Shown here: positions 5,568 through 55,801 of the stretch, in pieces
Position numbering within the stretch: the first letter of the stretch is position 1
How the letters are laid out: the number at the start of each line of letters is the position of its first letter
Assembly: GCA_945878135.1 (NCBI GenBank)
Contig: CAMDUL010000014.1
Coordinates: 1 to 64,000, forward strand
Source of the DNA: Chthoniobacter flavus
GTDB taxonomy: Bacteria > Verrucomicrobiota > Verrucomicrobiia > Chthoniobacterales > JACTMZ01
Length of the DNA stretch: 64,000 bases
Reading direction: 5' to 3'
Program-made: the position numbers and the translations under genes
Notes under the pieces: model-generated
What the model was told of the DNA's origin: nothing
The model's input: only the letters and a program-made list of their open reading frames with translations
Databases searched by the model: none

Positions 5568-5592
5568 TGTAGCGGCGGTCTGTGACCGCCGG
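5568..5592 (+). repeat. REP element, GTAG head, single copy (family A)
   Basis: A GTAG head at 5569-5572 is followed by an 8-bp hairpin, CGGCGGTC / GACCGCCG, with a TGT loop. The whole 25-bp unit is identical to the two arms at 13844 and 13890 and nearly identical to the unit at 10305. It starts 23 bp after the tsf stop codon. A CTACA at 5633-5637 could be the head of a decayed inverted partner, but no good hairpin precedes it. GTAG-headed short palindromes are the hallmark of REP elements linked to RAYT transposases. Confidence 0.8.
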
Positions 5593-5765
5593 TCCCTGAC
5601 TTTCAAACGACCGGTGCCGGAACGACAAACAACTACAGCGGTTTCTTGATCGCGCCTGGACCGGTATCGTCTTCTGGCCTGTGCTGCGCCGCGTGTGGAC
5701 CCGCAGCGGCCTCGGAACTTATGCCAATCCTCAAAGGGACTTGGACTCACGAATGACGATCGTCG

Positions 5766-5832
5766 GGTAGGGGACACGCGGCCCGCGTGTCCGTTGTGCA
5801 GAGGGCGGACGAGCGAGCCGCTCGTCCCTACC
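5766..5832. repeat. REPIN-like paired palindrome (family B, copy 1)
   Basis: An outer stem, GGTAGGG (5766-5772) with CCCTACC (5826-5832), encloses two perfect hairpins. The first pairs GGACACGCGG (5772-5781) with CCGCGTGTCC (5783-5792) around a single C. The second pairs GGACGAGCG (5807-5815) with CGCTCGTCC (5819-5827) around AGC. Read from either end, each half is a GTAG-headed hairpin, so this is an inverted pair of REP units. A diverged second copy lies at 55737-55801. It lies in the non-coding stretch after tsf. Confidence 0.8.
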
Positions 5833-6070
5833 TTAAGAGGTAAAGTCCATAACCATTTCGGAGTTGGTATTATTTCCCGCTCGGCGGAGAACGGAAACCG
5901 CAGAGGACGCAGAGACGGAACGCTCCGTCTTGGTGTTCCTGCTATCCGTGGCCGGCTAGGGCAATTTAAGAGAAGCTGTAGTTCGTTCGTTGTTGTGCGG
6001 CTACAGACAAACTCAAACCGCCTTCCGATGCGGGGGGGGTTAGCCAAGAACGCCCCCTTGCGTTTCCGGG
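5833..6070. other. Remainder of the gene-free region after tsf
   Basis: Together with 5593-5765 this is the non-coding rest of a 585-bp gap between tsf and the outer-membrane protein gene. No frame here has convincing protein character. It holds a repeat-like phrase at about 5888-5915 (ACCGCAGAGGACGCAGAGAC), a short hairpin GACGGA/TCCGTC at about 5912-5927, a CTGTAG/CTACAG pair at 5976-5981 and 6001-6006 that could be a decayed REPIN stem, and a run of eight G residues near 6030. It looks like a landing zone for small repeats. Confidence 0.6.
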
Positions 6071-6107
6071 CAAAGAAAAACGGCGCCGGATTGCTCCGGC
6101 GCCGTTT
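6071..6107 (-). terminator. Rho-independent terminator of the outer-membrane protein gene
   Basis: A 13-bp perfect stem (6078-6090 with 6095-6107) has a 4-nt loop. Read on the minus strand it ends in TTTTTCTTTG. It sits 23 bp beyond the stop codon of the gene at 6130-6666, in the right orientation. Confidence 0.9.
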
Positions 6108-6129
6108 GTGAAGTTGATCAGTTCAGCAA

Positions 6130-6666
6130 TTAGAACGCGAAACGCAGACCCGTGCGGGCGATGGCGCCGCCGCTGTTGCTGATGTCAGGCGAGTAGAACC
6201 AGCGACCGTCAACGAAGAGGCCGATGTTCTCGGTGAAGCGGTATTCCAGACCACCGCCGACGTCGCCGCCGCCGATGCCGGTTTTGTTCTCACTGTAGAT
6301 CTTGCCGATGCCGACCATGGCATAAGGCGAGAGGCCCCAGCAGAACGGATAGCGGAGGAAGAGGTGACCGAAGGTGCCCCATTCCGTGCCGATTCCGTCG
6401 TTGCCGGCCACGAACTGCTCGACGCCGAGACCGAAGTAACGGGCGAAGAAGTAGTTCAAGCCCAAGCCGCCACCCCAGACGGGGTCGCCAGAGCGGTAGA
6501 AGCCGCCCATGCCGAAGGCATCGATTTGGAATTCGTTGTCGCGGTAGAGGCAGGGCTCTTCCACAGGAACGACGGTTTTCTTGTAGCTTGCGGTTTCGGT
6601 GCCAGCGAACGACGACGAAGTCGCAGCGATGACAGCCACCAAGCTGGTGATGATATATTTTTTCAT
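6130..6666 (-). CDS. Outer-membrane beta-barrel protein, small, exported
   Basis: The 178-aa product has a clear Sec signal peptide (positively charged MKK, hydrophobic stretch, cleavage near SSSFA-G at about residue 22). The mature part has alternating hydrophobic and aromatic strands with many glycines and ends in LRFAF, the terminal-Phe pattern recognised by the BAM machinery. This suggests an 8-stranded barrel of the OmpA/OmpW size class. Two internal Cys are present. The gene has its own candidate promoter and a strong terminator, so it is probably monocistronic. The substrate or role cannot be inferred; it could be a structural porin-like protein. Confidence 0.75.
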   Translation of the reverse strand: MKKYIITSLVAVIAATSSSFAGTETASYKKTVVPVEEPCLYRDNEFQIDAFGMGGFYRSGDPVWGGGLGLNYFFARYFGLGVEQFVAGNDGIGTEWGTFGHLFLRYPFCWGLSPYAMVGIGKIYSENKTGIGGGDVGGGLEYRFTENIGLFVDGRWFYSPDISNSGGAIARTGLRFAF

Positions 6667-6713
6667 GATTAGGTTTGTTGGTTTGTTTGCGACGGATTAC
6701 TCCGCTGCCGGTG

Positions 6714-6741
6714 AGAGTAGCGGACAGCGGGAGGGGTGCAA
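6714..6741 (-). promoter_or_regulatory. Candidate promoter of the outer-membrane protein gene
   Basis: On the minus strand TTGCAC (6741-6736) and TACTCT (6719-6714) are separated by 16 bp and lie about 50 bp upstream of the ATG. It lies just downstream of the ribD terminator, which supports an independent start here. The match is by eye and moderate. Confidence 0.4.
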
Positions 6742-6754
6742 GCAATTTTTTAGG

Positions 6755-6780
6755 AAAAAAGCCCCCTTTTTTTGGGGGCC
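6755..6780 (-). terminator. Rho-independent terminator of ribD
   Basis: Read on the minus strand, a GCCCCC/GGGGGC-type stem with an A7 loop is followed by a T6 tract (TTTTTTCC). It lies 25 bp beyond the ribD stop codon and separates ribD from the outer-membrane protein gene. Confidence 0.8.
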
Positions 6781-6804
6781 CCAGATTTCGTAATTAACTG
6801 AGGA

Positions 6805-7845
6805 TCAAGGACGAGCGACTGCCGGTGCCTCATCCCGGCGGGTGCGTCCGGAGATCCGAAGGTCGCCGCCGATCCTTTGGTAGGCTGTGCCGGTCAATCG
6901 GACGGCTTGCCCCGGCCGGCCGGCTCCCCGTCCGCCCACGGCCGGCACTTTGCCTCCGGCCAGGAGGGGAGCGATATAAAAAATCACTTCGTCCGCCAAT
7001 TTCCCGTCGAAGAGTTTGCCGAGGGTGTGTCCTCCACCTTCGACCAGCACGGACTGGATGCCGCGGCGGGCCAAGGCCCGGAGCGCGGTCCGTAAACTGG
7101 GGGTCCGGAGGACAATCGTCCGGTCTTTCCAGCGGTCCTGCAGAACGCGTGCCTTCCGCGGAATCCCGCCGCGCGGGGCCCAGACCACGCGCCATGGCTG
7201 CGTTCCCTCGATCCCGCGCAGGGTGAGCGCGGGGTCGTCCTCCCGGATCGTGCCGGCCCCGACCAATATAGCCCCGACGCGGGCCCGGAGTTTCATGGCG
7301 TCGGCGCGCGCGGCCGGAGAGGTGATCCATTGGCCTTCACCGCGCGGACGGGTCAGGCGCCCGTCGAGGGACATGCCGCATTTGGCGATGACCCAGGGAA
7401 GGCCGGTTGTCATCGCGTGGTGGAAATCCGGATTGAGCGCCTCGCATTCGGCGGCAAGCACCTCTTGGCGCGTGGCCAGCCCCGCTTTCCGCAGGAGCGC
7501 AAGGCCGCGTCCGCGGTGGCGCGGATCGGGATCGATGGCCCCGGCCACCACGCAGCGGATGCCGGCCTCGATCAGGGCTGCTGTGCAGGGCGGGGTGCGT
7601 CCGTGGGTCGAACAGGGTTCGAGCGTGACATAAGCCGTGGCGCCGCGGGCGGTCGCGGGATTCTTCAACGAACGCAAAGCCTCGACTTCGGCATGGGGCA
7701 ATCCGGCGCAGCGGTGCCAACCGCGGGCGATGATGCGTCCGTTTTTGACCAGCACGCAGCCGACGGCGGGGTTGGGGCATGTTTGGCCCAGTCCGCGCCG
7801 CGCGAGACGCAGGGCTTCGCGCATGAATTTCTCGTCGTTGGACAT
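6805..7845 (-). CDS. ribD: Bifunctional diaminohydroxyphosphoribosylaminopyrimidine deaminase / 5-amino-6-(5-phosphoribosylamino)uracil reductase
   Basis: RibD performs the second and third steps of riboflavin synthesis: deamination of the pyrimidine and NADPH-dependent reduction of its ribosyl side chain. The 346-aa product has the zinc deaminase domain in the first 145 residues, with HAE at 51-53 and PCSTHGRTPPC at 77-87 (ligands His51, Cys78, Cys87), followed by the reductase domain (MSLDGRL and VEGGG segments). I chose the ATG at 7845 because the frame remains open 22 codons further only by running through tRNA-His. No other rib genes are adjacent. The start codon lies 8 nt after the tRNA 3' end, so the mRNA leader must be almost absent or produced by tRNA processing. 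Confidence 0.95.
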   Translation of the reverse strand: MSNDEKFMREALRLARRGLGQTCPNPAVGCVLVKNGRIIARGWHRCAGLPHAEVEALRSLKNPATARGATAYVTLEPCSTHGRTPPCTAALIEAGIRCVVAGAIDPDPRHRGRGLALLRKAGLATRQEVLAAECEALNPDFHHAMTTGLPWVIAKCGMSLDGRLTRPRGEGQWITSPAARADAMKLRARVGAILVGAGTIREDDPALTLRGIEGTQPWRVVWAPRGGIPRKARVLQDRWKDRTIVLRTPSLRTALRALARRGIQSVLVEGGGHTLGKLFDGKLADEVIFYIAPLLAGGKVPAVGGRGAGRPGQAVRLTGTAYQRIGGDLRISGRTRRDEAPAVARP

Positions 7846-7853
7846 CGGGGGCG

Positions 7854-7926
7854 GGTGGCCGACGGGATTCGAACCCGCAACAACCGGAATCACAATCCGG
7901 GGCTCTGCCATTGAGCTACGGCCACC
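7854..7926 (-). tRNA. tRNA-His (anticodon GUG)
   Basis: The minus strand folds as a complete cloverleaf. It has the tRNA-His-specific extra G at -1 opposite C73, a 7-bp acceptor stem GTGGCCG/CGGCCAC, an anticodon stem CCGGA/TCCGG with GUG, and the T-arm GTTCGAATC. CCA is not encoded. It is immediately followed by ribD on the same strand. Confidence 0.97.
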
Positions 7927-8023
7927 ATTGGCAGGAGGGTGAATGATTACGGGAGCAGCGGGATGGTGTCAAATACGGCGCGGGCTGTTGCGCCGGCGGG
8001 GCGGCGGGTGTAGCCAGTGGGAC

Positions 8024-8569
8024 ATGACGCGACGGTGGTGGATCCTTCTGGCGGCCTGCGGCCTCGGCGGTTGTGCCTCGTTGCAGGAGACCACGGTCTT
8101 CTACACGCCCGCGACGGCGGAATTTTTCCCGCCTTTGCCCAAGGATGCACCGGTGCCGGTGCTGACCGAGCCGCCGTTGTGGCCGCACCGGGTGATCGGG
8201 CGGTTTGTCGCGCAATCGGACCGCGGGTATCCCTTCCTCTACAAGGCGATCCTCTACAATGCCCGGTTGCAGGGTGCCGACGCGGTGGTGTTGCGCCAGT
8301 TGGCCTTCGATACGCGGCGCACCTACAACTACATCCCGCCATCGTGGCAGACCATACCGGTGAACAACGTCTACTACGCGCAGGTGAAGGACAAAAAAGG
8401 CAACTGGCAGAACGTGCCGCAGAACTACACGACCTTCGTGCCGATCATGCAGCCGGGGCGCACAGTGGTGTCGGACGTGCAATGGACCGACGTGACGGCC
8501 GAAATGGTCGTGCGCCGCGGCAAGACGGCATCCGCCCCGTTGCCGGAGCAGATGATCGTGCCGCAGTGA
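8024..8569 (+). CDS. Predicted lipoprotein of unknown function
   Basis: The 181-aa product starts MTRRWWILLAACGLGGCAS, a lipoprotein signal with lipobox LGGC and acylation at Cys17. The mature part is rich in Pro, Tyr and aromatic residues, with segments such as PPSWQTIPVNNVYYAQ, and has no motif I recognise. The frame is open upstream to 7943, but the ATG at 8024 gives the proper signal peptide. It is followed after 22 bp by the ADP-ribosylglycohydrolase-like gene on the same strand. An outer-membrane location is likely. Confidence 0.7.
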   Translation: MTRRWWILLAACGLGGCASLQETTVFYTPATAEFFPPLPKDAPVPVLTEPPLWPHRVIGRFVAQSDRGYPFLYKAILYNARLQGADAVVLRQLAFDTRRTYNYIPPSWQTIPVNNVYYAQVKDKKGNWQNVPQNYTTFVPIMQPGRTVVSDVQWTDVTAEMVVRRGKTASAPLPEQMIVPQ

Positions 8570-8576
8570 GGGGAAA

Positions 8577-8591
8577 GTTGAGGGTTGAGGG
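8577..8591 (+). repeat. GTTGAGGG heptad repeat before a start codon
   Basis: The sequence GTTGAGG-GTTGAGG-G occupies the last 15 bases before the ATG at 8592. The same words recur in a longer run at 36865-36899. This is a low-complexity dispersed repeat, not a Shine-Dalgarno sequence, although GAGGG could serve as one. Confidence 0.6.
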
Positions 8592-9599
8592 ATGGAAGAC
8601 GAGGGGGGAAAGTCCGGCATGACCGGATGGGAAGGACGCAAACGTGGTTGCCTGCTCGGCGCTTTCCTGGGCGATGCCTTGGCCATGCCGGCGCACTGGT
8701 ATTACGACCGCGCCGCGTTGGCGCGGGATTACGGGCGGGTGACAGACCTCGTTGCCCCGAAAAATCCGCATGCGGACAGCATCCTTTGGCGTTCGAGCTA
8801 CGCGGCACCGAACGCCAAAGGGGAAATCTTGCATGACCAGGCGCAATATTGGGGAAAGCGCGGAGTGCACTATCACCAGTTTCTGCGCGCCGGGGAAAAC
8901 ACGCTGAATATGCAACTCGCCCTCGAGCTGCTGGCTTCGCTCCGGGCGTGCGGCGCATACGACGCCCGCGATTACACGCGGCGTTACATCGAATTCATGA
9001 CCACTCCCGGACGCCACCGCGACACTTACATCGAGGAATGTCACCGGAATTTCTTCACCAAGTATGCGCGCGGCAAGAAACCGGAGGATTGCGGGGGCGA
9101 AGACATCCACATCGGCGGTCTCGCGCACGTGCCGATTCTGGCTGTCTGGTATGCCGATGATGAAGCCGCCGCGTTGGCCGCCGTGCGCGAGCACGTGCGG
9201 GTCACGCATCGCGGCGAGTTGGTGGAAACAGCGGCGCGTGACTTGACCAAAATGCTGCTGGCCATCCTCAACGGCGCTGGCGTGCGCGAGAGCATCGAAA
9301 AGTTCGGCAATGGCTGGGTCGGACGCCAAAAGCTCGAAGCTTGGGCAAAGCGGACGGACGAGGAAGTCGTCGGCGGCATCCTGAGTCCGGCGTGCTATTT
9401 GGAGGATTCGTTTCCCGCCTCTTTGTTTCTCGCTTGGGAATACGCCGACAGTCTCGAGAACGCGTTGGTGGCCAACACCAACCTCGGCGGCGACAACTGC
9501 CATCGCGGGATCGTCGTGGGTGCGTTGGTCGGCGCGGGAGGCGCGCCCGTGCCGGAGCGCTGGGAGAAGGCTCTTCTTGGCCGGGAGTTGCTGGCGTGA
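8592..9599 (+). CDS. ADP-ribosylglycohydrolase-like protein
   Basis: The 335-aa product belongs to the ADP-ribosyl-glycohydrolase/crystallin J1 superfamily, di-Mg2+ enzymes that remove ADP-ribose from proteins or small molecules. The N-terminal signature GDALAMPAHW is near residues 27-36. The C-terminal signature reads NTNLGGDNCHRG near residues 298-309; canonical ARH proteins have GGDTD there, whereas the J1-like subgroup has GGxNxHRG. It therefore probably belongs to that subgroup and may differ in metal binding. A second ATG at 8619 is an alternative start. The stop overlaps the next gene's GTG by GTGA, so the two are translationally coupled. No partner toxin of the DarT or DraT type is nearby. 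Confidence 0.8.
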   Translation: MEDEGGKSGMTGWEGRKRGCLLGAFLGDALAMPAHWYYDRAALARDYGRVTDLVAPKNPHADSILWRSSYAAPNAKGEILHDQAQYWGKRGVHYHQFLRAGENTLNMQLALELLASLRACGAYDARDYTRRYIEFMTTPGRHRDTYIEECHRNFFTKYARGKKPEDCGGEDIHIGGLAHVPILAVWYADDEAAALAAVREHVRVTHRGELVETAARDLTKMLLAILNGAGVRESIEKFGNGWVGRQKLEAWAKRTDEEVVGGILSPACYLEDSFPASLFLAWEYADSLENALVANTNLGGDNCHRGIVVGALVGAGGAPVPERWEKALLGRELLA

Positions 9600-10309
9600 G
9601 GCGAAGGGCGTCTCTTTTCTCTCTGCTGCTGTCCGGATGCGTCAGCTCTCCGGAGATTCCGCCGGAAGTCCGGAAGGAGACGCATCGCGTCGAGGCGGGC
9701 GGCGAATCCGTCGCGGTTGATTTTTATTTCCGCCCCGGTGCGAAGCCGCGGCCACTGACGGTTGTCGTTCACGGCTTCTTGGCCAACAAGGACCGCATGG
9801 CGCATTGGGGCGTCTTGCTCGCGCGCGAAGGCTTCATCGTCGCCGTGCCGACCAATCCGACCTTGGCGAACGACGGGCGCAATACGGAGGCCATTGTCGG
9901 TCTGGTCGAGCTGGGGCGTGCCGGACGTTGGCCGGTCGGGGCCGGGACGGACGGACGCGTGGCGCTGGTTGGTTTCTCGCGCGGAGGATTCGAGACGATC
10001 TTGGCTGCGGCGGAGTTGGGCGAGGTGGTCGATGCGTGGGTCGGACTCGATCCGGTGGATCGTGACGGCAAGGGGCGCCTCGCTGCGCCCAAAGTCCGCG
10101 CTCCCGGGCTGGCCTTGCTCGCCGATCCCGCACCGCTCAACGCCAACGGCAACGCGCGCGGGATGCTGTCCGCTTATGGTGGTGAGTTGCAGGTGGTGCG
10201 CCTACGCGACACGGGTCACCTCGACGCCGAGTCGCCGCGCAGCAACGGACAGTTCGCCGAGTTCAAGCGACGCGCGCTGGCATTTTTGCGGCGGGTTTTT
10301 GAAATGTAG
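9596..10309 (+). CDS. Lipoprotein alpha/beta-hydrolase
   Basis: Starting at GTG 9596, the 237-aa product opens with RRRASLFSLLLSGC, a lipoprotein signal with Cys15 as the acylated residue. An alpha/beta-hydrolase fold follows: VVVHGF (oxyanion region), the nucleophile elbow GFSRG (Ser of GxSxG) and a late Asp/His pair in DTGHLD. It resembles the PET hydrolase/chlorophyllase-like dienelactone hydrolase group. The frame is open far upstream inside the preceding gene, but only the GTG gives a signal peptide, and it overlaps the previous stop codon. The TAG stop codon is formed by the GTAG head of a REP element. Substrate unknown. Confidence 0.8.
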   Translation: MRRRASLFSLLLSGCVSSPEIPPEVRKETHRVEAGGESVAVDFYFRPGAKPRPLTVVVHGFLANKDRMAHWGVLLAREGFIVAVPTNPTLANDGRNTEAIVGLVELGRAGRWPVGAGTDGRVALVGFSRGGFETILAAAELGEVVDAWVGLDPVDRDGKGRLAAPKVRAPGLALLADPAPLNANGNARGMLSAYGGELQVVRLRDTGHLDAESPRSNGQFAEFKRRALAFLRRVFEM

Positions 10310-10329
10310 CGGCGGGCTGTGACCGTCGG
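10305..10329 (+). repeat. REP element overlapping a stop codon (family A variant)
   Basis: The 25-bp unit has the GTAG head at 10306-10309 and differs from the 5568 copy at two positions (GGCGGG for GGCGGT and GTCGG for GCCGG). The TAG of its head is the stop codon of the hydrolase gene at 9596-10309, so the element may have replaced or created the original gene end. Confidence 0.75.
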
Positions 10330-10361
10330 TGCTTTATGAACTTCCATGTTCCGGCGGAGGC

Positions 10362-10934
10362 TTATTCCGCGTCGAAAGTCACCACAATCGCCCCGCGCAA
10401 ATCGCCCTCTCGGAAATCGACGGCTTCATCTTGCGGATAGTCACGTTGCAAAGCCGCGCGCACCTTGCCGGGAATCTCCGCGCCGCTTCCGTGGCAGGCG
10501 AGGCAGGTGGCCATGACCGGAACCGGGCGGTAATAGCGCAATTCTTTCGCGCCGTCGTCGGCAGTGAATTCCTTCATCACGGGTTCGGGCGGGGAGAGGG
10601 GATTCCAAGCCGCGAGCCATTCTTCGAGAACCGAGCGGTCCGTGTCATCGGGTGCGTTGGCGGGGTTGCGGACGCGCAAGGCGGTGCGGCGGACATTTTT
10701 GACCTGCGGGAATTCATCCGCCACTTCGGCGGTGAGAGGCAGGGCTTCGAGGCGGCAATAAGCGATGGCGGCTTCGGGCCCTTCGCTCGCGATTTTTTCC
10801 TGCAGGGTGGTCATCAATCCGGCGAACAGGCGCGCGGCCACTTGACCGCCGATTTCCCCCGGGGACGGATCCGCGGCAAGGACGGTGGCGGCGAGCGCGC
10901 CGCTGGCCACCATGATGCGGCGGAGGGTGGTCAT
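10362..10934 (-). CDS. Exported c-type haem protein, Tll0287-like (DUF3365)
   Basis: The 190-aa product starts [20 protein letters not shown], a Sec signal. One haem-attachment motif CLACH lies at residues 144-148, preceded by the KELRYYRPV segment typical of the Tll0287-like domain. These are periplasmic haem sensor or electron-carrier domains. The ATG overlaps the pckG stop codon (ATGA), so the two are translationally coupled. The functional link to PEP carboxykinase is not evident. Confidence 0.8.
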
Positions 10935-12730: not shown

Positions 12731-12855
12731 CTTTTCATCTTCGCTCCGGTCGGGGGCCGTTGGCAACGTCCGCCGCTCCCATATTTTTTTGAACGCCTTG
12801 CCGGGGTGATTTGTCGCACACTACGCACGCGGGCGCAGGCCCACGCGCTCGGTTT

Positions 12856-13843: not shown

Positions 13844-13914
13844 TGTAGCGGCGGTCTGTGACCGCCGGAACATGCGAACAAGTAAGGCACCGGCGGTCAC
13901 AGACCGCCGCTACA
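13844..13914. repeat. REPIN: perfect 25-bp inverted pair of REP elements (family A)
   Basis: Arms 13844-13868 and 13890-13914 are perfect reverse complements, separated by 21 bp. Each arm is itself a GTAG-headed hairpin with an 8-bp stem, so the element can fold as an outer TGTAG/CTACA stem with two hairpins or as one long cruciform. It lies between the ATPase and permease genes of one operon, 25 bp after the stop and 16 bp before the next ATG, so it is transcribed and may affect the ATPase-to-permease ratio or mRNA stability. Confidence 0.9.
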
Positions 13915-20525: not shown

Positions 20526-20548
20526 AACCGCGGATGACGCGGATGGCA
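20526..20548. repeat. Degenerate tandem phrase (ACCGCGGATGACGCGGAT type)
   Basis: The stretch contains GCGGAT twice and GGCACGGAT once. It resembles the phrase at about 5888-5915. It lies just upstream of the prfB start and beside a REPIN. It may be a separate small dispersed repeat; the evidence is only two diverged copies in this window. Confidence 0.35.
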
Positions 20549-20563
20549 CGGATATTTGGGGAA

Positions 20564-20625
20564 AAGTAGGAGCGCCATCTTGGCGCTTGGTCCTGAAGAT
20601 AAGCGGCAGGATGCCGCTTCTACTT
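20564..20625. repeat. REPIN made of two different GTAG-headed REP units (family D)
   Basis: An outer stem AAGTAGGA/TTCTACTT (one mismatch) encloses two hairpins. The first pairs AGCGCCA (20571-20577) with TGGCGCT (20581-20587) around TCT. The second pairs AGCGGCA (20602-20608) with TGCCGCT (20612-20618) around GGA. Each half reads from its own end as GTAG, two purines, then a hairpin. The architecture equals families A and B, but the stem sequences differ. It lies between prfB and the FtsB-like gene and ends 4 bp from the latter's stop codon. Confidence 0.85.
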
Positions 20626-47739: not shown

Positions 47740-47785
47740 GTCGCCGCGGCGACCTTTCCCTGTGTGCGCGCTGGCGCGCGAAATA

Positions 47786-47868: not shown

Positions 47869-47892
47869 GAGAAATTTGTCCCGCCAGCGCCG

Positions 47893-48610: not shown

Positions 48611-49456
48611 CTAGGATTCGACTTTGACCACGGTGGCGAAGTCTTCTTCGCCGAGGCCTGCGGTGCAGGCTTGCTCGTAGAGCAACCGCATGGCCTCGGT
48701 GAGGGCGCGGTGTTGCGGATGGGCGGCGGCGGCGGCGAGGCGGAGGTCCTTGCGCATGTTGCGGGCGGAGAAACGTGGGGCATACTCGTCGCCCAGCATG
48801 CAGGGGAGTTTTAGGTCGACCACGCCGGAGCGGGCGGCGTTGTTCTCGAGGGCGGTGACGAGGACCTGCGGATCGACGTCATTGGCGCGGAGGAGGTGGA
48901 TGGCTTCGGCCAGCGAGACGGCCGCGGCGGCGGCCATGATGTTGGTGGCAAGTTTGACCGCACTGGCTTGTCCTATCTCTCCCATGGGCAGGATGGCTTT
49001 GGCGCTGGCGGCGAGCACGGGGCGCGCGCGCTCGAGGGCGGAGGAATCGCCGCCGATGTAGTAGGTGATCTGTCCCTGCGCGGCGGCATCGCGGCTGCCG
49101 GTGAAAGGGGCATCGAGAAAAGCGGCACCGGTGGGTGCGACTTCCGCGGCCAAGCCGCACACCGTTTCCGGCGCTACGGTGGCGTGGCCGAGGATGACGT
49201 GATGCGGCGCGAGGGCGGGGAGGAGGGCGTGCACGGTGGAGCGCAGGGCTTCGTCGTCAGCGACGAAAATTTGCAGGATGTCCGCCGCGCGTGCCACGGC
49301 GGCGGGATCCGGTGCGGGGGCGGGCAGCCCGTCGAACTTCCGCGCGCTGCGGTTCCAGACCGCCAGCGGAAAACCCGCAGCTTGCACGCGAGCGGCGACG
49401 CGCGACCCGATGAGTCCGAGGCCGAGGACGCCGGCCCGCGGGGCTGCGGGGGTCAT
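48611..49456 (-). CDS. NAD(P)-binding 3-hydroxyisobutyrate-dehydrogenase-like oxidoreductase
   Basis: The 281-aa product has the beta-hydroxyacid-dehydrogenase layout: N-terminal GLGLIGSRVA dinucleotide motif, a substrate-binding FLDAPFTGS (family DAPVSGG) near residue 115, and the catalytic-lysine region AVKLATNIM near residue 165. It resembles tartronate semialdehyde or 3-hydroxyisobutyrate reductases and GLYR1-like proteins; the substrate is not deducible. It starts 8 bp after the SurA-like gene, suggesting an operon. Confidence 0.88.
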   Translation of the reverse strand: MTPAAPRAGVLGLGLIGSRVAARVQAAGFPLAVWNRSARKFDGLPAPAPDPAAVARAADILQIFVADDEALRSTVHALLPALAPHHVILGHATVAPETVCGLAAEVAPTGAAFLDAPFTGSRDAAAQGQITYYIGGDSSALERARPVLAASAKAILPMGEIGQASAVKLATNIMAAAAAVSLAEAIHLLRANDVDPQVLVTALENNAARSGVVDLKLPCMLGDEYAPRFSARNMRKDLRLAAAAAHPQHRALTEAMRLLYEQACTAGLGEEDFATVVKVES

Positions 49457-49464
49457 GCCGGATT

Positions 49465-50511
49465 TCAGCTGCCGGCGGGAGCGGCCGGGGCCTGCGCGGC
49501 GGGGGCGGCCGGCAATTTGTTGTCCACCTTGGCCTCGGAACGCACGCTTTCGATGATGCCGCGGACCACATCGCGGCGCTTGCTGCCCCCGAGGTAGGAG
49601 CCGACTTGCTCCTTCACTTCTTCGTAGGGCATGGAGCCGGCGTCTTTGCGGTCGGTCACATTGATGACGTGCCAGCCGAATTTGGTGCGCACGGGTTCTT
49701 TGCTGATGTCGCCCTTCTTCATGGCGAAGGCGGCTTCGGCGAATTCGGGTACCATGCGGTCTTTGGGGAAGAAGTTGAGGTCGCCGCCGGATTCTTTGGC
49801 GCCGGGTTCCTCGGAGACTTCTTTGGCCACAACGGTGAAGTCCTCTTTCTTGTCGTTGACGCGCGCGAGGGCGGCTTCGGCGGACTTCTTCTTTTCGGCA
49901 ACAACCTCTTCGGTGGCATCCTCGGGGACACGGATGAGAATATGACTGGCGCGCACGAGCTCGGGGTGCTCGAACTCCTTCTTGTTCTCTTCGTAGAATT
50001 TTTTGATGTCCTCGTCGGCCACCTTGGCTTGGTCGCCGATCTGTTGCTCCATCCACTTCTGCTGCTGCATCATCTTTTTCACCGTGTCGCGGAAGGATGT
50101 CTCGGTTTCCCCGGCCTTGGCCATCTCCGCCTTGAACGTGTTTTCGTCCGGGAACTGGCTTTTGACCCGCGCGATCTCGGCATCGACCTCGGCATCGGGG
50201 ATCTCGACCGAGGAAGCTTTGCGTGAGACGAGCTTGTCGACGATGAGCTCGTCGAGGATCTCGCGGTAGCCGGCCATTTTCTGGTCGGCGGTGAGGTCGT
50301 CGGGGCTGATACCGGAGGCGGCGAGCGCGTTGTTGAAGGTTTCCTGCAGGTCGGCGCGGGAGATTTTCTCGCCCTCGACGATGGCGACGGGATCCGGAAG
50401 GTCGGTGTCGTCGGCTTTGGCGGCGGGTTTCTCGTCTTGGGCCACGGCGGTGACCGCGAAAGCAGTGGCGAGAGCCAGGAGGCCGGCGAACCGGCGGGGA
50501 TCAGGTTTCAT
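49465..50511 (-). CDS. Periplasmic parvulin-type chaperone/isomerase (SurA/PrsA-like)
   Basis: The 348-aa product has a Sec signal (RRFAGLLALATAFAVTAVAQ), a SurA N-like helical domain (about residues 40-170), and one rotamase domain with RASHILIRVPEDA, GGDLNFFPKDRMVPEFAEAAF and FGWHVINV. It ends in an Ala/Pro-rich tail. It should assist folding of outer-membrane proteins. The frame is open far upstream, but only the ATG at 50511 gives a signal peptide. Confidence 0.92.
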   Translation of the reverse strand: MKPDPRRFAGLLALATAFAVTAVAQDEKPAAKADDTDLPDPVAIVEGEKISRADLQETFNNALAASGISPDDLTADQKMAGYREILDELIVDKLVSRKASSVEIPDAEVDAEIARVKSQFPDENTFKAEMAKAGETETSFRDTVKKMMQQQKWMEQQIGDQAKVADEDIKKFYEENKKEFEHPELVRASHILIRVPEDATEEVVAEKKKSAEAALARVNDKKEDFTVVAKEVSEEPGAKESGGDLNFFPKDRMVPEFAEAAFAMKKGDISKEPVRTKFGWHVINVTDRKDAGSMPYEEVKEQVGSYLGGSKRRDVVRGIIESVRSEAKVDNKLPAAPAAQAPAAPAGS

Positions 50512-50558
50512 AAGAGCGGGGACAATGGCACGGGTGGCGGGAGTCGGCCAGTGGTTTT

Positions 50559-51014
50559 TCACGATCGGCCCTTGGCAAACCACGCGCGGGTGGCCGCGTG
50601 GCGTGCGGCAAACAACCGCGGAAAGACCAGCCACCGGCAGACGAGGTCGCCGGGCGGGCCCCCGAGGTGCCACGGCAGGCGGAACTCGACGCGGTCGGTG
50701 AGCAGGGTGCCGTCGGGGTGCGGTTCGAACCTATGATGATGGCGCCAGAATGCGAACGGACACCGGGTGCCGGTATCGACGAGCAGGCGAGGGGCCTCGA
50801 CCGTTTCCCAGCAGCCGGTCCAACGCAGGGTCAGGGGGCCTTGGCGCACGGCGACGGTGAATTCCCCGCCGGGATGCGCGGTTTCCGTGGCGCGGATTTC
50901 CAGGATGCGCAGGCCCGGCGGCGAGATGTGCCGCAGGTTATGCGGATTCTCGTGGAAGCGGAAGAGATCATCCGGACGGGCGGGGACGACGGTCGAGCGG
51001 GTGAAGACGGGCAT
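50559..51014 (-). CDS. SRPBCC-family (START-like) protein
   Basis: The 151-aa product resembles the polyketide-cyclase/dehydrase-like ligand-binding family often annotated as cell division inhibitor-like: [31 protein letters not shown] near the N-terminus and [15 protein letters not shown] with a C-terminal [10 protein letters not shown]. It has a hydrophobic ligand pocket fold by inference; the ligand is unknown. It is divergent from acpP with about 100 bp between starts. The ATG at 51014 gives the conserved beginning. Confidence 0.8.
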
Positions 51015-51057
51015 GGGGGATGACGGAGTGCTTGCCGGCGGGGTGTCTTTTTCGTTA

Positions 51058-51084
51058 TTGCAATGGATCCGGTTCGCCAATAAG
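51058..51084 (+). promoter_or_regulatory. Candidate acpP promoter region
   Basis: An AT-richer stretch holds TTGCAA (51058-51063) followed after 14-16 bp by CAATAAG, about 30 bp upstream of the acpP ATG. This is a visual match only. Confidence 0.3.
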
Positions 51085-51112
51085 CGTGTCCCGTTCAATC
51101 CAAACAAATCTT

Positions 51113-51358
51113 ATGTCCGACAAACCCATCGAAGAAAGAGTCAAAGAAATCATCGTCAAAGAACTCAGCGTCAATCCCGAGCAGGTGACGCCCACAGCCT
51201 CGTTCATCGAGGACCTCGGGGCCGACTCGCTCGACACCGTCGAGCTCGTCATGGCGTTCGAAGAGGAGTTCGGCGTCGAAGTGCCCGATGAGGAGGCCGA
51301 AAAGCTCCAAACCGTCGGCGACGTCGTCAAATACATCGAGGCGAACTCCGGCAAATAG
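51113..51358 (+). CDS. acpP: Acyl carrier protein
   Basis: The 81-aa acidic protein carries the growing acyl chain in fatty-acid synthesis on a phosphopantetheine arm attached to Ser39 in the motif GADSLDTVE. Length and four-helix pattern are normal. The frame extends upstream to 51020, but the ATG giving [10 protein letters not shown] is right. No fab gene is adjacent; a strong terminator follows after 22 bp, so it is monocistronic. Confidence 0.97.
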
Positions 51359-51380
51359 CCGCGGAGCTCAGTTTTCACCA

Positions 51381-51415
51381 TGACCCCGGGGCGTAAACCC
51401 CGGGGTCTTTTTTTT
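51381..51415 (+). terminator. Rho-independent terminator of acpP
   Basis: GACCCCGGGG (51381-51390) pairs with CCCCGGGGTC (51397-51406) around CGTAAA and is followed by T9. Confidence 0.95.
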
Positions 51416-51426
51416 TGGGGAGGTTG

Positions 51427-51449
51427 CGGCGGTCACGGCGCGCCGCTAA
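51427..51449. repeat. Decayed REP unit of family A
   Basis: CGGCGGTCAC then GGCGCGCCGC and TAAA align with the right arm of the 13890 element (CGGCGGTCAC, AGACCGCCGC, TACA) with about four mismatches. The CTAC head has become CTAA. It lies between the acpP terminator and the moeB start, 12 bp before the ATG. Confidence 0.5.
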
Positions 51450-51460
51450 AAAGGGGCGCA

Positions 51461-52588
51461 ATGCTTTCGCCCGATGAATTGACGCGTTATGCCCGCCAGA
51501 TGGCCGTGCCGGAATTCGGCGCGGCCGGACAGGAAAAATTGCGGGCCTCGCGCGTCCTGCTCATCGGGGCGGGGGGACTCGGGTCGCCGGCGGCGCTCTA
51601 TCTGGCCGCGGCGGGCGTGGGGACGCTCGGGATCGTGGATGCGGACGAGGTCGAGCTTTCCAACCTGCACCGTCAGCTTCTTCACGGCACGGACGACGTG
51701 GGCCGGCCCAAGGTGGAGTCCGCCCGGCGCCGTTTGGGTGCGGTCAATCCGCATGTCCGCGTCGAGCCTGTGGCCGGACGTTTCACCGCGGCCAGCGCGC
51801 TGGAGTCGGCGCGGGGCTGGGACGTGGTGGTCGACGGGAGTGATAATTTCCCCACGCGCTATGCTTCGAACGACGCCTGTGTGGCCTTGGGGATCCCCAA
51901 TGTTTACGGTTCGGTCTGGCGCTTCGAGGGGCAGGTGTCGGTCTTCGCCCCGCATCTCGGCGGTCCATGCTACCGCTGTCTCAACCCGCGCGCCCCGGAA
52001 CCGGGCACGGTTCCCTCCTGCGCGGAGGCGGGAGTTCTCGGCGTCATGCCGGGCCTGGTCGGGACGCTGCAGGCCTTGGAAGCGATCAAGTTGATCACGG
52101 GAGTGGGGCGACCGTTGGTCGGACGCTTGCTTCACATCGACGGGGCGGCGATGAAATTCCGCGAGTTCACGCTGCGCCGCGATCCGGATTGCGCGCGGTG
52201 TGCCGACGGACGCCGTGATTTGCCGGTTGAGGCGGAGGGGGAATTTTGCGAAGCATGCGGGGAAATGGCGGACGGAGAAATATCGGTGCTCGCCCTGGCG
52301 GAAGCGCGCCAGGCGGGCGGAGATCATGTGCTCCTGGATGTGCGCGAGCCGTGGGAGCTGGACGTGGCAAGGGTGGAACCGTGTTTACCCATCCCGATGG
52401 GAGAGGTGGCGGCGCGCCTGGAAGAAATCCCCCGCGATGTGCCGGTCTATGTGCTGTGCCACGGTGGCGTGCGCAGCGGGCGGGTGGTGGAATTTTTGCG
52501 CGGCCGGGGCTACGGCAACGCGACCAATGTGCGCGGCGGGATCGCGGCTTGGTCCGCCGAGGTGGACGCCTCCGTTCCCGCGTATTAG
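51461..52588 (+). CDS. moeB: MoeB/ThiF-family adenylyltransferase with C-terminal rhodanese domain
   Basis: The 375-aa product starts MLSPDELTRYARQ, with nucleotide loop GAGGLGS at residues 37-43, DNFPTR near residue 130 and zinc-type CYRC...CARC pairs. A rhodanese domain fills residues 285-375 with active Cys333 in CHGGVRSG. Such fusions (MOCS3/MoeZR type) adenylate and sulfurate the C-terminus of a ubiquitin-like sulfur carrier for molybdopterin, thiamine or tRNA thiolation. The carrier partner is not in the window. It lies 9 bp before the flavin reductase gene. Confidence 0.92.
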   Translation: MLSPDELTRYARQMAVPEFGAAGQEKLRASRVLLIGAGGLGSPAALYLAAAGVGTLGIVDADEVELSNLHRQLLHGTDDVGRPKVESARRRLGAVNPHVRVEPVAGRFTAASALESARGWDVVVDGSDNFPTRYASNDACVALGIPNVYGSVWRFEGQVSVFAPHLGGPCYRCLNPRAPEPGTVPSCAEAGVLGVMPGLVGTLQALEAIKLITGVGRPLVGRLLHIDGAAMKFREFTLRRDPDCARCADGRRDLPVEAEGEFCEACGEMADGEISVLALAEARQAGGDHVLLDVREPWELDVARVEPCLPIPMGEVAARLEEIPRDVPVYVLCHGGVRSGRVVEFLRGRGYGNATNVRGGIAAWSAEVDASVPAY

Positions 52589-52597
52589 AACACCGGC

Positions 52598-53083
52598 ATG
52601 CATTCGATTTTACGCGGGGAAGAAGGATTGAAGGCGGCGTTGGGGCGGATTGCCAGCGGGCTCTATGCGGTCGGCGCGGTGCATGAAGGCCGGCGTCTCG
52701 GCATGCTGTGCAGCTTTGTGGAGCAGGCGGGTTTCGAGCCTCCGATGATTTCGATCGCGCTGGGGCATGATCGTCCGCTGCGGCAGGTGCTGGAGCGCGG
52801 AGGACTTTTCTCGCTCAATATCCTCGGCGCGGAGGACAAAAAACTGCTCGCCGCCTTTGCTTCGGGGCGGGAGGAGGATCCGTTTGCCGCTTTCGCTTTG
52901 GTCGAGAACGGGCACAGCTTGCCGCAACTGGCGGATGCGCTGGCGTGGCTGGCTTGCCGTCCGCGCGGTTCGGTCGATGCCGGCGACCATGTGGTCTACG
53001 TGGCCGAGGTGATCGATGGCTGCTTGCACCGCGAGGCCGGCGAGCCGATGATCCGCGTCCGCAAAAATGGGTTCAGCTACTGA
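52598..53083 (+). CDS. Flavin reductase-like FMN-binding protein
   Basis: The 161-aa product fits the flavin-reductase-like domain: ALGRIASGLYAVGA at the N-terminus, GMLCSFVEQAGFEPPMISIALGHDRPL in the FMN-binding strands, and FSLNILG. It probably binds FMN and reduces it, or acts as the small component of a two-component oxygenase. It sits 9 bp after the moeB gene and 1 bp before the Trm112-like gene, suggesting an operon running into thrS. Confidence 0.87.
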   Translation: MHSILRGEEGLKAALGRIASGLYAVGAVHEGRRLGMLCSFVEQAGFEPPMISIALGHDRPLRQVLERGGLFSLNILGAEDKKLLAAFASGREEDPFAAFALVENGHSLPQLADALAWLACRPRGSVDAGDHVVYVAEVIDGCLHREAGEPMIRVRKNGFSY

Positions 53084-53084
53084 C

Positions 53085-53243
53085 ATGGATTTTCTTTTGG
53101 AGGTCGTGCGTTGTCCGCGCACCGGGCAGAAGCTGCACGAGGAAGCGGGACGACTGGTGACCGGGGACGGGGCGCTGGCTTACCGGGTGGACGACGGGAT
53201 CCCCGTTCTGCTGGCCGAGGAAGCGGTGGAGGTGGCGCGATGA
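53085..53243 (+). CDS. Trm112-family small protein
   Basis: The 52-aa frame reads MDFLLEVVRCPRTGQKLHEE, then YRVDDGIPVLLAEEA. This is the Trm112/UPF0434 pattern of a short zinc-ribbon-like protein: LLEVVRCPxTGQKL, then YRVDDGIPVLL. The eukaryotic Trm112 activates methyltransferases for tRNA, rRNA and release factors; the bacterial small proteins have no settled function. Only one Cys (Cys10) is present where many have CxxC. Its stop codon overlaps the thrS ATG (ATGA), so it is coupled to a tRNA synthetase. Confidence 0.8.
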   Translation: MDFLLEVVRCPRTGQKLHEEAGRLVTGDGALAYRVDDGIPVLLAEEAVEVAR

Positions 53244-55075
53244 CCGAATTGGAAACCCTGCGCCACTCCTGCGCCCACGTGCTGGCCGAGGCGATTTTGC
53301 GCATCTGGCCCGAGGCGCAATTCGCGGCGGGTCCGCCGGTCGAACAGGGATTTTATTATGACGTCGATTTGGGTCACCGCATTTCGACCGAGGATTTCGC
53401 CCGGATCGAAGCCGAGATGGGCAAGATCATCGCGGAGAACCAGCCATTTGAACGCCGTGTGGTCAGCCGGTCCGAAGCCATGGAATTGGGCCGTGCCGGA
53501 AAACTGGCTGCTCTCGGCGAGCGCGGGGTGCCCAGCCGCTACAAGCTCGACATTCTCGAGAACATTCCCGAAGGCGAGGAGATCAGCCTTTACCGCAACG
53601 GTGCTTTCACCGACCTCTGCGCCGGGCCGCACGTGGCCGCGACCGGACGGATCGGCGCCTTTGCGCTCACCGCGGTGGCCAGCGCCTACTACAAGGGCGA
53701 CGAGAGCAATCCGCAGTTGCAGCGGATTTACGGCATCGCCTTCGCCACGCCGGAGGAATTGACCAAGTGGCGCGAGATGATCGAGGAAGCGCGCAAGCGC
53801 GATCACCGCAAGCTGGGCAAGGAATTGCAGCTCTTCCACATCGACGATGCGGTTGGTTCGGGCCTTATTCTCTGGACGCCGAAGGGCGCCGTGGTCCGGC
53901 AGGAACTGCAGAATTTCATCAGCGAGGAATTGCGGCGTCAGGGTTACGAGCAGGTCTTCACCCCGCACATCGGGCGGCTCGAACTCTTCCGCACATCGGG
54001 CCACTACCCGTATTACGCCGACTCGCAGTATCCGCCGCTCGTCGAGCGCGAGACGCTGCATCGGCTCGCCGAGGAAGGCTGCAGTTGCGCGGATCTGGCC
54101 GCGCGTTTGGAGAAGGGCGAAGCCGAGGGCTATCTGCTCAAGCCGATGAATTGCCCGATGCACATCAAGATTTTCGCTTCGCAGCCCCGCAGTTACCGCG
54201 ATCTTCCGGTGCGGCTGGCGGAATTCGGGACGGTTTACCGCTGGGAGCAGTCGGGCGAATTGAACGGCATGACCCGCGTGCGCGGCTTCACCCAGGATGA
54301 TGCGCACTTGTTTGTCACCGAGGACCAGATGGGCGCCGAAATCCAGGGATGTCTCGATCTGGTGAAAAAAGTTTTCGGCGCCTTCGACATGAAGGACTAC
54401 CGCGTGCGGCTCGGATTGCGCGATCCGGGGTCGGACAAATACGTGGGCAAAGCGGAAGACTGGGGTCGGGCCGAGGAGGCGTGCCGCCAGGCGGCCAAGA
54501 CGCTCGGTGTGCCTTACACCGAGGAACCGGGCGAGGCGGCTTTCTACGGCCCGAAAATCGACTTCGTGGTGCGTGATGTCATCGGACGCGAGTGGCAGCT
54601 CGGCACGGTGCAGGTCGACTTCCAGTTGCCCGAGCGTTTCGATCTTCATTACACGGGGGCGGACAACAAACCGCACCGCCCGGTCATGATCCACCGTGCG
54701 CCGTTCGGCTCGATGGAGCGGTTTGTCGGCGTGCTGATCGAGCATTTCGCCGGGGCGTTTCCCGTCTGGCTCGCGCCGGAACAGGCACGTGTTTTGCCGG
54801 TCTCGGACAAAGTCGCGGCCTACGCGGACGAAGTGGCGGCGGCGTTGCGGGCGGCGGGTGTGCGGGCCGTGGTGGACGGCTCGCAGGACAAACTCGGAGC
54901 CAAGATTCGTCTTGCGCAGGTCGAGAAAGTGCCTTACATGCTGGTGGTAGGTGGCAAAGAGGCCGAGTCGCGGCAGGTTTCGGTGAGAAGCCGGAAAGCC
55001 GGTGACGAAGGTGTCCTCGCCCTCGATAACTTTGTTGAGCGCATCAAAACAGAAATCAGTGAACGAGTCCTGTAG
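53240..55075 (+). CDS. thrS: Threonyl-tRNA synthetase lacking the N-terminal TGS domain
   Basis: The 611-aa product begins directly with the editing domain: HSCAHVLAEAI near residues 9-19 (HxxxH) and LCAGPHV near residue 127. The class-II catalytic core follows, with MNCPMHIKIF (zinc Cys) near residue 303, YRWEQSGELNGMTRVRGFTQDDAH, and the anticodon-binding domain. Typical ThrS has about 640 residues with a TGS domain of about 60 in front. The upstream frame here belongs to the Trm112-like gene, so the TGS is truly absent. It is 40 bp before infC. No T-box or operator-like mimic is obvious. Confidence 0.95.
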   Translation: MTELETLRHSCAHVLAEAILRIWPEAQFAAGPPVEQGFYYDVDLGHRISTEDFARIEAEMGKIIAENQPFERRVVSRSEAMELGRAGKLAALGERGVPSRYKLDILENIPEGEEISLYRNGAFTDLCAGPHVAATGRIGAFALTAVASAYYKGDESNPQLQRIYGIAFATPEELTKWREMIEEARKRDHRKLGKELQLFHIDDAVGSGLILWTPKGAVVRQELQNFISEELRRQGYEQVFTPHIGRLELFRTSGHYPYYADSQYPPLVERETLHRLAEEGCSCADLAARLEKGEAEGYLLKPMNCPMHIKIFASQPRSYRDLPVRLAEFGTVYRWEQSGELNGMTRVRGFTQDDAHLFVTEDQMGAEIQGCLDLVKKVFGAFDMKDYRVRLGLRDPGSDKYVGKAEDWGRAEEACRQAAKTLGVPYTEEPGEAAFYGPKIDFVVRDVIGREWQLGTVQVDFQLPERFDLHYTGADNKPHRPVMIHRAPFGSMERFVGVLIEHFAGAFPVWLAPEQARVLPVSDKVAAYADEVAAALRAAGVRAVVDGSQDKLGAKIRLAQVEKVPYMLVVGGKEAESRQVSVRSRKAGDEGVLALDNFVERIKTEISERVL

Positions 55076-55115
55076 TCACTCCTGACGTCCCGCACGCTCA
55101 CGGGATCATCATTCA

Positions 55116-55736
55116 ATGCCTCGGCCTGTCTTTTCACGCACTCCGCAGCCCCCCCTCATCCGGGTCAATCACCGCATTCGCGCCCGCGAAGTCCGGGTGA
55201 TCAATGGCTCGACCGGCGAGCAGCTCGGCGTCCTCAAATTGCCCGATGCCCTGCGCAAGGCGGAGGAACTCGGTCTTGATCTCGTCGAGGTGGCGCCCAA
55301 TGCCAACCCGCCGGTCTGCCGGATCGTCGATTTCGGCAAATACCGCTACGAGCTGGCCAAGCAGGAGAAAGACAAGAAGTCCCACGCGGGCAAAGTCAAA
55401 GAAGTCAAATTCCGGGTCAACATCGACAATCACGATTATCTGACCAAGATCCGCCACGCCGAGGAGTTCCTCGACAAGGGCAACAAGCTCAAGGTGCAGT
55501 TGCAGTTCCGCGGACGCCAGATGGCCCACCAGGAACTGGGCATGGCCGTGGTCCTGCGGGTGAAGGAAGACCTCGCCACCATGGGCAATGTCGACATGGA
55601 GCCCAAGCTGGTCGGCCGGGCCATCAACATGGTGATGAGTCCTTTGCCCGCCAACAAACGCAAGCGCCGGTTCAAGCCGATGGAGTTCGAACCGGAGGAC
55701 GACAGCGGGGAGCCGGACGACGACGGGGACGAGTAA
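55116..55736 (+). CDS. infC: Translation initiation factor IF-3
   Basis: The 206-aa product has the IF3 N domain (NHRIRAREVRVINGSTGEQLGV, LVEVAPNANPPVCRIVDFGKYRYE), the linker, and the C domain (KEVKFRVNIDNHDYLTKIRHAEEFL, VQLQFRGRQMAHQELG). An acidic tail (PEDDSGEPDDDGDE) extends beyond the usual end. The start is an ordinary ATG at 55116 rather than the AUU of enterobacteria. It follows thrS but is not followed by rpmI-rplT; a REPIN begins at the first base after its TAA. Confidence 0.95.
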   Translation: MPRPVFSRTPQPPLIRVNHRIRAREVRVINGSTGEQLGVLKLPDALRKAEELGLDLVEVAPNANPPVCRIVDFGKYRYELAKQEKDKKSHAGKVKEVKFRVNIDNHDYLTKIRHAEEFLDKGNKLKVQLQFRGRQMAHQELGMAVVLRVKEDLATMGNVDMEPKLVGRAINMVMSPLPANKRKRRFKPMEFEPEDDSGEPDDDGDE

Positions 55737-55801
55737 GGCAGGGAAACGCGGCTCGCGTGTCCGGGCACGTTGAGCGGACGAGCGGGCCGCCCGTCCCTGC
55801 C
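55737..55801. repeat. REPIN-like paired palindrome (family B, copy 2)
   Basis: An outer stem GGCAGGG (55737-55743) with CCCTGCC (55795-55801) encloses two hairpins. The first pairs ACGCG and CGCGT around GCT (the adjoining AA/GT positions do not pair); the second is GGACGAGCGG... to CCGCCCGTCC with one mismatched pair. Compared with the 5766 copy the head is GCAG instead of GTAG with a compensating change in the other arm. It begins directly after the infC stop codon and ends 7 bp before the stop codon of the convergent aminotransferase gene, filling the whole intergenic space. Confidence 0.78.

Follow-up and report, generated by a model that had tools for sequence, protein, structure and literature searches.

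Bacterial genomes commonly contain REP repeats, which, like their inverted pairs (REPINs), are related to RAYT (TnpA_REP) elements but are not autonomous. The closest described systems include the 24 families of GTAG REPs described from Opitutus terrae and further PVC bacteria (Di Nocera et al. 2013, PMC3733652). In Pseudomonas fluorescens SBW25 the replicating unit is the REPIN, an inverted REP pair of ~70 bp whose spacer is less conserved, and compensatory hairpin changes were noted there (Bertels and Rainey 2011, PMC3116915). The Stenotrophomonas maltophilia REPtron cannot do without the first base of the loop, whereas swapping stems has a modest effect and a mismatch harms cleavage; that study tested in three systems how transposases discriminate between REP families (Corneloup et al. 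2021, PMC8266576).

We analyzed a 64,000-nt stretch (the window) of a Chthoniobacter flavus genome from the order Chthoniobacterales (Verrucomicrobiota), the 2.64-Mb draft assembly that contains it (90.7% complete), and relatives. The elements share with SBW25 the inverted pair with its spacer, the paired unit and the compensatory changes, but here the pairs measure 58-73 bp and the stems of 8-9 bp stand directly or one base after GTAG. From sequence comparison, it is very probable that they are REP and REPIN elements, with family A tied to a RAYT encoded on contig 29 and family B to a second RAYT lineage.

GTAG-headed hairpins in the window

Direct reading of the sequence and an automatic hairpin scan located seven elements of three families (Table 1). 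The preliminary description had them mostly as inverted pairs, which holds for four of the seven (5767, 13845, 20566 and 55738); the element at 5569 is single, that at 10306 truncated and that at 51427 doubtful.

Table 1. Positions and features of the headed hairpin elements in the window
Element	Position	Strand	Context or basis
Single family-A REP, GTAG-CGGCGGTC-TGT-GACCGCCG	5569..5591	+	24 nt past the EF-Ts gene stop
Family-B REPIN, hetero-pair, 65 bp	5767..5831	.	Sequence reading, hairpin scan
Truncated family-A REPIN	10306..10357	+	Left hairpin (10306-10328) with 1 mismatch, right hairpin missing
Intact family-A REPIN, perfect inverted pair, 69 bp	13845..13913	.	ABC ATPase gene / ABC-2 permease gene on either side
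Family-C REPIN, hetero-pair GAGCGCCA(TCT) / AAGCGGCA(TCC), 58 bp	20566..20623	.	
Possible family-A REP remnant, doubtful	51427..51449	-	No GTAG head, judged by eye
Decayed family-B REPIN, 63 bp, GCAG at both heads	55738..55800	.	IF-3 gene / convergent aminotransferase gene on either side

A CTAC at 5633-5636 occupies the place expected for the head of a partner to the 5569 element, without the partner's hairpin. We read the 10306 element as a truncated pair because its similarity to the 13845 copy extends through the spacer (81%, 53 nt). The two stems of the 5767 pair differ (GTAG-g-GGACACGCGG... on the plus strand, GTAG-GGACGAGCG... on the minus strand). By eye, the 51427 remnant departs from the family-A consensus at 4 of 23 letters. 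The window copies were checked for intergenic position, and an Rfam scan of the window returned two tRNAs and no other known RNA family. The double GCAG heads at 55738 were considered as a sign of selection for the outer stem, a reading that we dropped since one further double-GCAG pair (in the relative G005) makes too few cases.

RAYT lineages and their probable hairpin families

A RAYT was expected in this genome, and the search found one gene above the NF047646 and PF01797 cut-offs, on contig 29 (G000:C29:9461-9937; NF047646 105.2 bits, cut-off 80). The sole solved relative found for its product is the TnpA_REP structure 4er8 (E 5e-10). Residues H65-x-H67, of the HUH motif, and Y125 are invariant in a 7-row alignment of relatives, and we take Y125 to be the catalytic tyrosine. 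The search of this 90.7%-complete assembly returned no second RAYT above cut-off. A Y1 protein on contig 13 was rejected as a candidate (NF047646 55.8 bits, below 80); it has a DnaA-like C-terminus, and its 3.3-kb locus has no GTAG hairpin.

The contig-29 gene carries family-A hairpins at both ends with two stems, GGTC and GCTC, and family A would belong to this enzyme. A separate lineage, on a 100/100 branch, has RAYTs flanked by B-type hairpins with a 9-bp stem and a G loop; in relatives, the RAYT L069 has B-type GGACATGCG/GGACGAGCG pairs on both sides. A point against a tie of B to this lineage is that the flanks of the B-lineage RAYT of G005 read GGACGGCTG/GGTCCGCTG, while that genome holds 53 GGACGAGCG sites. 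Family B would belong to a second lineage present in relatives, and since this lineage was not found in this genome, family B is probably orphaned here. The search of this genome returned no RAYT for families B and C, and family C looks orphaned like B. Elsewhere in the genome there is also a set of hairpins with a TCC loop, for which, as for C, no RAYT was identified.

The preliminary description offered either one RAYT accepting several stems or several RAYTs. The stem variety at the flanks of the contig-29 gene bears out the former and the second lineage the latter, albeit in relatives, with only one RAYT found here; both alternatives therefore hold. Its proposed check, whether RAYT genes are flanked by matching REPs, comes out positive for A with the genome's own RAYT and for B in relatives only, and for C none was found.

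Could the contig-29 RAYT alone mobilize A, B and C, ignoring stem and loop? It is the only RAYT found above cut-off here, its flanks already hold two stems, and one A-lineage RAYT of another genome (L296, among the later 54 described below) has a B-like GGGCGATTG(ACCT) hairpin. We nevertheless consider this improbable, because B-type hairpins accompany the separate lineage and no A-lineage RAYT with HMM bits >150 in our set of 139 is flanked by a 9-bp stem starting GG.

Conservation and drift of the hairpin

We surveyed 139 distinct RAYT-like proteins, three of which (L143, L076, L077), scoring <45 bits, are perhaps not RAYTs. With a caller that misses loops >5 nt and non-GTAG heads, a flanking GTAG hairpin was detected for 84 of them, on both sides in 66, and none for 55. 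Hairpins are formed by 163 of 677 GTAGs within 300 nt of the RAYT gene and by 12 of 664 at 600-1400 nt.

On a tree of 67 RAYTs, each with at least two flanking hairpins, offset and stem length require 9 changes against 26.5 when shuffled (0/200 shuffles as low), and the first loop base requires 8 against 13.4 (64 rows, 0/200 as low). Thus the spacing, the length of the stem and the first base of the loop follow the RAYT tree. GGTC versus GCTC stems were tried as clade markers and rejected (6 changes vs 7.3 shuffled, 27/200 as low).

Inner stem pairs change through compensatory swaps, even around one RAYT. Own-flank stems are of equal length yet different for 43/67 RAYTs, and for 34/67 they differ by a transversion or by at least 2 letters. 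Among the family-A copies, stem pairs 6 and 7 show 12 double changes, all Watson-Crick, versus 7 single changes. The relative G008 (n = 29) has T-A 16, C-G 9, G-C 2 and other 2 at stem pair 3, and G-C 21, C-G 7 and G-T 1 at stem pair 5.

Such pairing would also be conserved if the hairpins were intrinsic terminators or mRNA-stability hairpins kept as RNA, with an incidental RAYT association. The window copies lie between genes, some of them (5569, 55738) shortly past a stop codon; after the C pair, one strand reads TTTACTTTA and the other TTTT, and a terminator-like hairpin adjoins the 51427 remnant. Against this, head and loop are constant while the inner stems vary, the hairpins gather at RAYT gene ends, their plan follows the RAYT tree, no T-run follows the other window copies (by eye), and 4 of 10 congeners have no A sites. 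We regard this alternative as very unlikely, and favor mobile REP/REPINs. The site of the 13845 REPIN is occupied in G005, holds a remnant in G004 and is empty in G008. Copy number does not go together with RAYT presence in G004, where 110 A sites stand against no RAYT match at E<=0.001; one has to suppose that the RAYT was lost or falls in a gap of the assembly.

Copy number across the genome

The headed GC-rich hairpins noticed at the outset are real elements, seen in the window and recurring genome-wide. At <=3 mismatches we count 79 sites of family A (GTAG-CGGCGGTC-TRT-GACCGYCG), 13 left hairpin sites of family B and 3 sites of family C; family B also has 23 right hairpin sites, and each reversed control gives 0. 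One position of A and one of B enter these counts twice, on both strands. A looser, degenerate A pattern at <=2 mismatches gives 96 sites. The third C site is headless, which leaves 2 good ones: A and B have the many copies of REP/REPINs, while C is rare and shows this weakly. The A heads are GTAG at 73 sites, GTCG at 4, GTGG at 1 and GGAG at 1, so the head is not invariably GTRG. There are 21 head-out A pairs of 67-73 bp (42/79 sites), and their spacers have mostly similar ends and unlike middles, so recent duplication of A pairs is not seen.

We also scanned 264 kb (the window and contig 1:1-200000) for perfect hairpins of at least 8 bp, irrespective of head (n = 158). GTAG is the most frequent preceding tetramer (7/158), at 7.6 hairpins per 1000 GTAGs against about 0.3 per 1000 for all tetramers pooled. 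TAGG exceeds the GTAG rate (3/348), which we attribute to the B hairpin being read with a shift of one base inward. Many of the 158 lack such a head, as chance GC-rich palindromes would, but the A and B copy counts (79, 13 and 23 vs 0) refute this reading, and we give it practically no weight.

A helix residue and the loop base

That stems are swapped while head and loop stay constant hints at the parts that the enzyme reads. A RAYT, by analogy with published systems, would bind the hairpin in single-stranded form and read the GTAG head, the hairpin size and the first loop base; by cutting and joining DNA it would let paired hairpins spread between genes. Within the stem mainly pairing would count, and compensatory drift would let stems look unrelated while the plan is kept.

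The RAYTs also yield a tentative and rather doubtful proposal, in which the residue before a conserved lysine of a putative DNA-binding helix sets the accepted hairpin, the stem being free if paired. Leu would correspond to a T-first loop, Trp or Phe (mostly with K-x-W-[TS]) to a G-first loop, and W-K-x-V with a GGAG head to a C-first loop. In the first set (80 of the 84 RAYTs with a GTAG hairpin), Leu goes with T in 53 cases, mixed in 3, C in 1 and G in 1; the non-Leu cases are Trp/Phe-G 10, Trp-T 4, Phe-A 1, Trp-C 1 and others 6.

The code was guessed from the first 67 RAYTs, after which 70 loci were taken (16 repeats, 54 new RAYTs). Among the 35 new RAYTs with a GTAG hairpin, Leu occurs with T 13 times and A once, and Trp with G 14, mixed 3, T 1 and A 1; the two others (Gly, gap) have G. 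Of the tree rows, 96 combine L/W/F with T/G; 66+24 of them agree and 6 disagree. The residue changes only 3 times on the tree, and the well-supported branches give 2 independent pairs (all branches, 3), too few for a sign test to reach significance. A literature search of limited extent returned nothing on Chthoniobacterales REPs or on such a helix code.

Comparison with known systems

Elements of this kind are already known; what is new is the association of helix residue and loop base, only a lead as it is not phylogenetically significant. The ~100 natural RAYT-REP couples, mostly verrucomicrobial, indicate which hairpin parts are fixed and which drift for each enzyme, single out one helix that may do the reading, and explain how unrelated-looking stems can belong to the same enzyme.

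With the S. maltophilia group 3 REPtron (PMC8266576) the elements share an 8-bp perfect stem, a 3-nt loop and GTAG before the stem; the loop there reads GCT, which also occurs in part of family B, whereas the family-A loop starts with T. The hairpin shape here, a perfect short stem beside GTAG, fits RAYT group 3, with a loop dependence that is correlative. Pseudomonas and Stenotrophomonas, members of another phylum, likewise show several classes of REP in one genome, a single RAYT with two slightly different REPs next to it, and abundant REPs whose own RAYT is missing (Nunvar et al. 2013, PMC3686654). Opitutus terrae (PMC3733652) is another organism, and A, B and C were compared by description with the 24 families of that study; its REPs share the GTAG end, short stem, small loop and head-out dimers, with several families in one verrucomicrobial genome and hetero-dimers of different stems. 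Our findings fit published REP/RAYT biology, including these GTAG families.

REP elements of the window and the source genome

Sequence inspection and a hairpin scan recovered every element listed for the window in the preliminary description, and the identification of these elements as ordinary REP/REPIN elements with their RAYT (TnpA_REP transposase) is well supported. The inverted pairing that had been described for most of them was confirmed for four of the seven elements; the other three, at 5569, 10306 and 51427, are listed in the table.

Hairpin families and features of the window, and a second Y1 protein of the source genome (G000)
Feature	Position	Description
Family A hairpin		GTAG-CGGCGGTC-TRT-GACCGYCG
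Family B pair		GTAG-GGACACGCG.../GTAG-GGACGAGCG...
Family C pair		GAGCGCCA(TCT)/AAGCGGCA(TCC)
Two elements	5569 and 10306	Single or truncated
One element	51427	Remnant at best
REPIN (inverted head-out hairpin pair)	13845-13913	Between ABC ATPase gene and ABC-2 permease gene
Contig-13 Y1 protein (locus L001)	G000:C13:60347-60676	361 aa, DnaA-like C-terminus

Copy number, on which the preliminary reading hinged, proved high for A and B. The window makes up the first 64 kb of contig 14 in the G000 draft (2,642,159 bases, 56 contigs, completeness 90.7%). With up to 3 mismatches, this draft contains 79 A, 13 B-left and 3 C sites, a single location in family A and another in family B being scored on both strands, and the same three patterns read backwards gave no match in G000 at this threshold. 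For the B-right hairpin 23 sites were counted, and for a degenerate A pattern 96. The 79 A sites fall at 57 separate places; 42 of these sites are paired, giving 21 REPINs with outward heads and lengths of 67-73 bp. In a head-free scan of 264 kb (the window and positions 1-200000 of contig 1), GTAG was the commonest tetramer ahead of perfect hairpins (7/158). A larger scan of the window and 68 loci of the same genome, a partly hit-chosen sample, yielded 89 GTAG hairpins, the few intragenic ones probably being chance; they include family-A variants whose stems read GGAC or GCTC, and another group in which the loops are of TCC type and the stems vary.

The B REPIN at 55738-55800 is decayed and carries GCAG at both heads, which keeps the outer pairing; another double-GCAG pair, of family A, is present in the congener G005. 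A ladder-like repeat (AACCGCAGAGGACGCAGAGGACACGGAG-type) lies near REPs at 20526-20555 and 5896-5920 of the window. At up to 2 mismatches it has 26 sites in G000 versus 3 in a reversed control, and about 6 of 12 sites inspected by eye look real, the rest being chance-like.

RAYTs and their flanking hairpins

A PF01797 search of G000 found two Y1 proteins, on contigs 29 and 13. The contig-29 protein is a RAYT (NF047646, 105.2 bits, cut-off 80) whose only solved-structure relative at E≤0.001 is 4er8, a TnpA_REP. As anticipated for a RAYT gene, it is flanked by matching REPs: the 3′ flank has an A hairpin whose stem is GGTC, and the 5′ flank has an A pair whose stems are GCTC. Among the matches listed from a named genome collection, its relatives bear the labels Spartobacteria, Chthoniobacterales, Verrucomicrobia and, in some cases, Acidobacteria; the source organism is taken to belong to the Chthoniobacterales (Verrucomicrobiota). 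The contig-13 protein, which scores under the NF047646 cut-off, has a DnaA-like tail and has no GTAG hairpin in its own locus, was rejected as a RAYT.

We analyzed 139 distinct RAYT-like proteins from 57 genomes, 147 genomes of the order and 80 of 506 confirmed relatives in a genome collection. A flanking GTAG hairpin was called for 84 of the 139 (both sides in 66), and none was found by the caller used for the other 55. GTAGs lead perfect hairpins with stems of 8 bp or more in 163 of 677 cases within 300 nt of the gene, versus 12 of 664 at 600-1400 nt.

A tree of 67 RAYTs contains one fully supported branch of 10 members, with 9-bp stems beginning GG in 9/10 and a G-first loop in 7/10; most of the remaining 57 have a T-first loop. 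One member of this branch, from another family of the order (locus L069), has GGACATGCG/GGACGAGCG pairs on both flanks that resemble the B type of the window. Its RAYT has matches at E≤1e-15 in 5 of 10 congeners and none in G000. The matches of G005 and G008 lie on the B branch, that of G002 was left out of the tree because no flanking hairpin was found, the G010 copy has an internal stop, and the G006 match is a fragment of unsure lineage. Six loci from other genomes of the order (L106, L268, L280, L274, L299 and L302) have RAYTs with flanking hairpins headed by GGAG, not GTAG, and with C-first or T-first loops.

Site occupancy, possible RAYT loss and age of copies

The site of the REPIN at 13845-13913 is occupied by an A pair in G005, whereas in G004 what is left there is an A remnant close to a contig end. 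In G008 it is empty, the ABC ATPase and ABC-2 permease genes almost touching, and no A site was found in that genome at up to 2 mismatches. At the shared site both arms have the loop TGC in the G005 REPIN (locus L320) and TGT in the window, with unlike spacers. The two arms of a REPIN may change in concert. The spacers of the 21 A pairs are mostly alike at their ends (GAAC-like, GGCAC-like) and unlike in their middles, and most A copies are therefore probably old.

G004 has 110 A sites, at least 5 of them no more than 100 nt from the beginning of a contig, and no RAYT match at E≤0.001. G000 has B sites with no B-lineage RAYT (one flanked by B-type hairpins) found. REPs surviving RAYT loss are described for Pseudomonas (PMC3686654). 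Alternatively, the absence in G004 and G000 may reflect assembly gaps at REP-flanked genes.

Constant and variable parts of the hairpin

The plan of the hairpin (offset and stem length) changes 9 times on the 67-RAYT tree, against a mean of 26.5 when shuffled 200 times. For the first loop base the figures are 8 and 13.4, and for neither trait was any of the 200 shuffles as low. Whether a stem reads GGTC or GCTC does not follow the tree (6 changes versus 7.3; 27/200 shuffles as low), and both stems occur together at six A-lineage RAYTs, that of contig 29 among them. Stems of equal length and unlike sequence flank 43 of the 67 RAYTs; in 34 of these the difference amounts to a transversion or to two or more letters. 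At stem pairs 6 and 7, A copies show 12 double changes, all Watson-Crick, versus 7 single ones, a tally of copies rather than events from a search whose mismatch limit disfavours doubles. In the B-type stem of G008, pair 3 is T-A, C-G or G-C in 27/29 copies and pair 5 is G-C or C-G in 28/29. Such a pattern would be left by an enzyme that reads the head, the loop and the hairpin's size and for which the stem mainly needs to pair.

The predicted structure of the contig-29 RAYT (7-row alignment, mean pLDDT 79.5) places residues 79-96 in one helix. Where the loop begins with T, the helix residue preceding a conserved lysine is mostly Leu; where it begins with G, this residue is mostly Trp or Phe, a rule with which 90 of 96 RAYTs agree. 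Framed on the first set, the rule was largely upheld in a new set, drawn from 54 further RAYTs that were found by searching 213 genomes of the order (Leu with T 13, A 1; Trp with G 14, mixed 3, T 1, A 1). Several W-K-x-V RAYTs have GGAG heads and mostly C-first loops. As the tree shows no more than three changes of this residue, the link is a correlation between few clades and not proof, and we regard it as a lead.

Comparison with known systems

These elements are of a known kind, now in a little-studied order, and provide a good natural data set on the hairpin features read by a RAYT. For the S. maltophilia enzyme in vitro, PMC8266576 reports that the first loop base is essential, that stem swaps have modest effects and that a mismatch impairs cleavage. 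The recognition proposed above, of head, loop and size with a stem that has chiefly to pair, agrees with those results.
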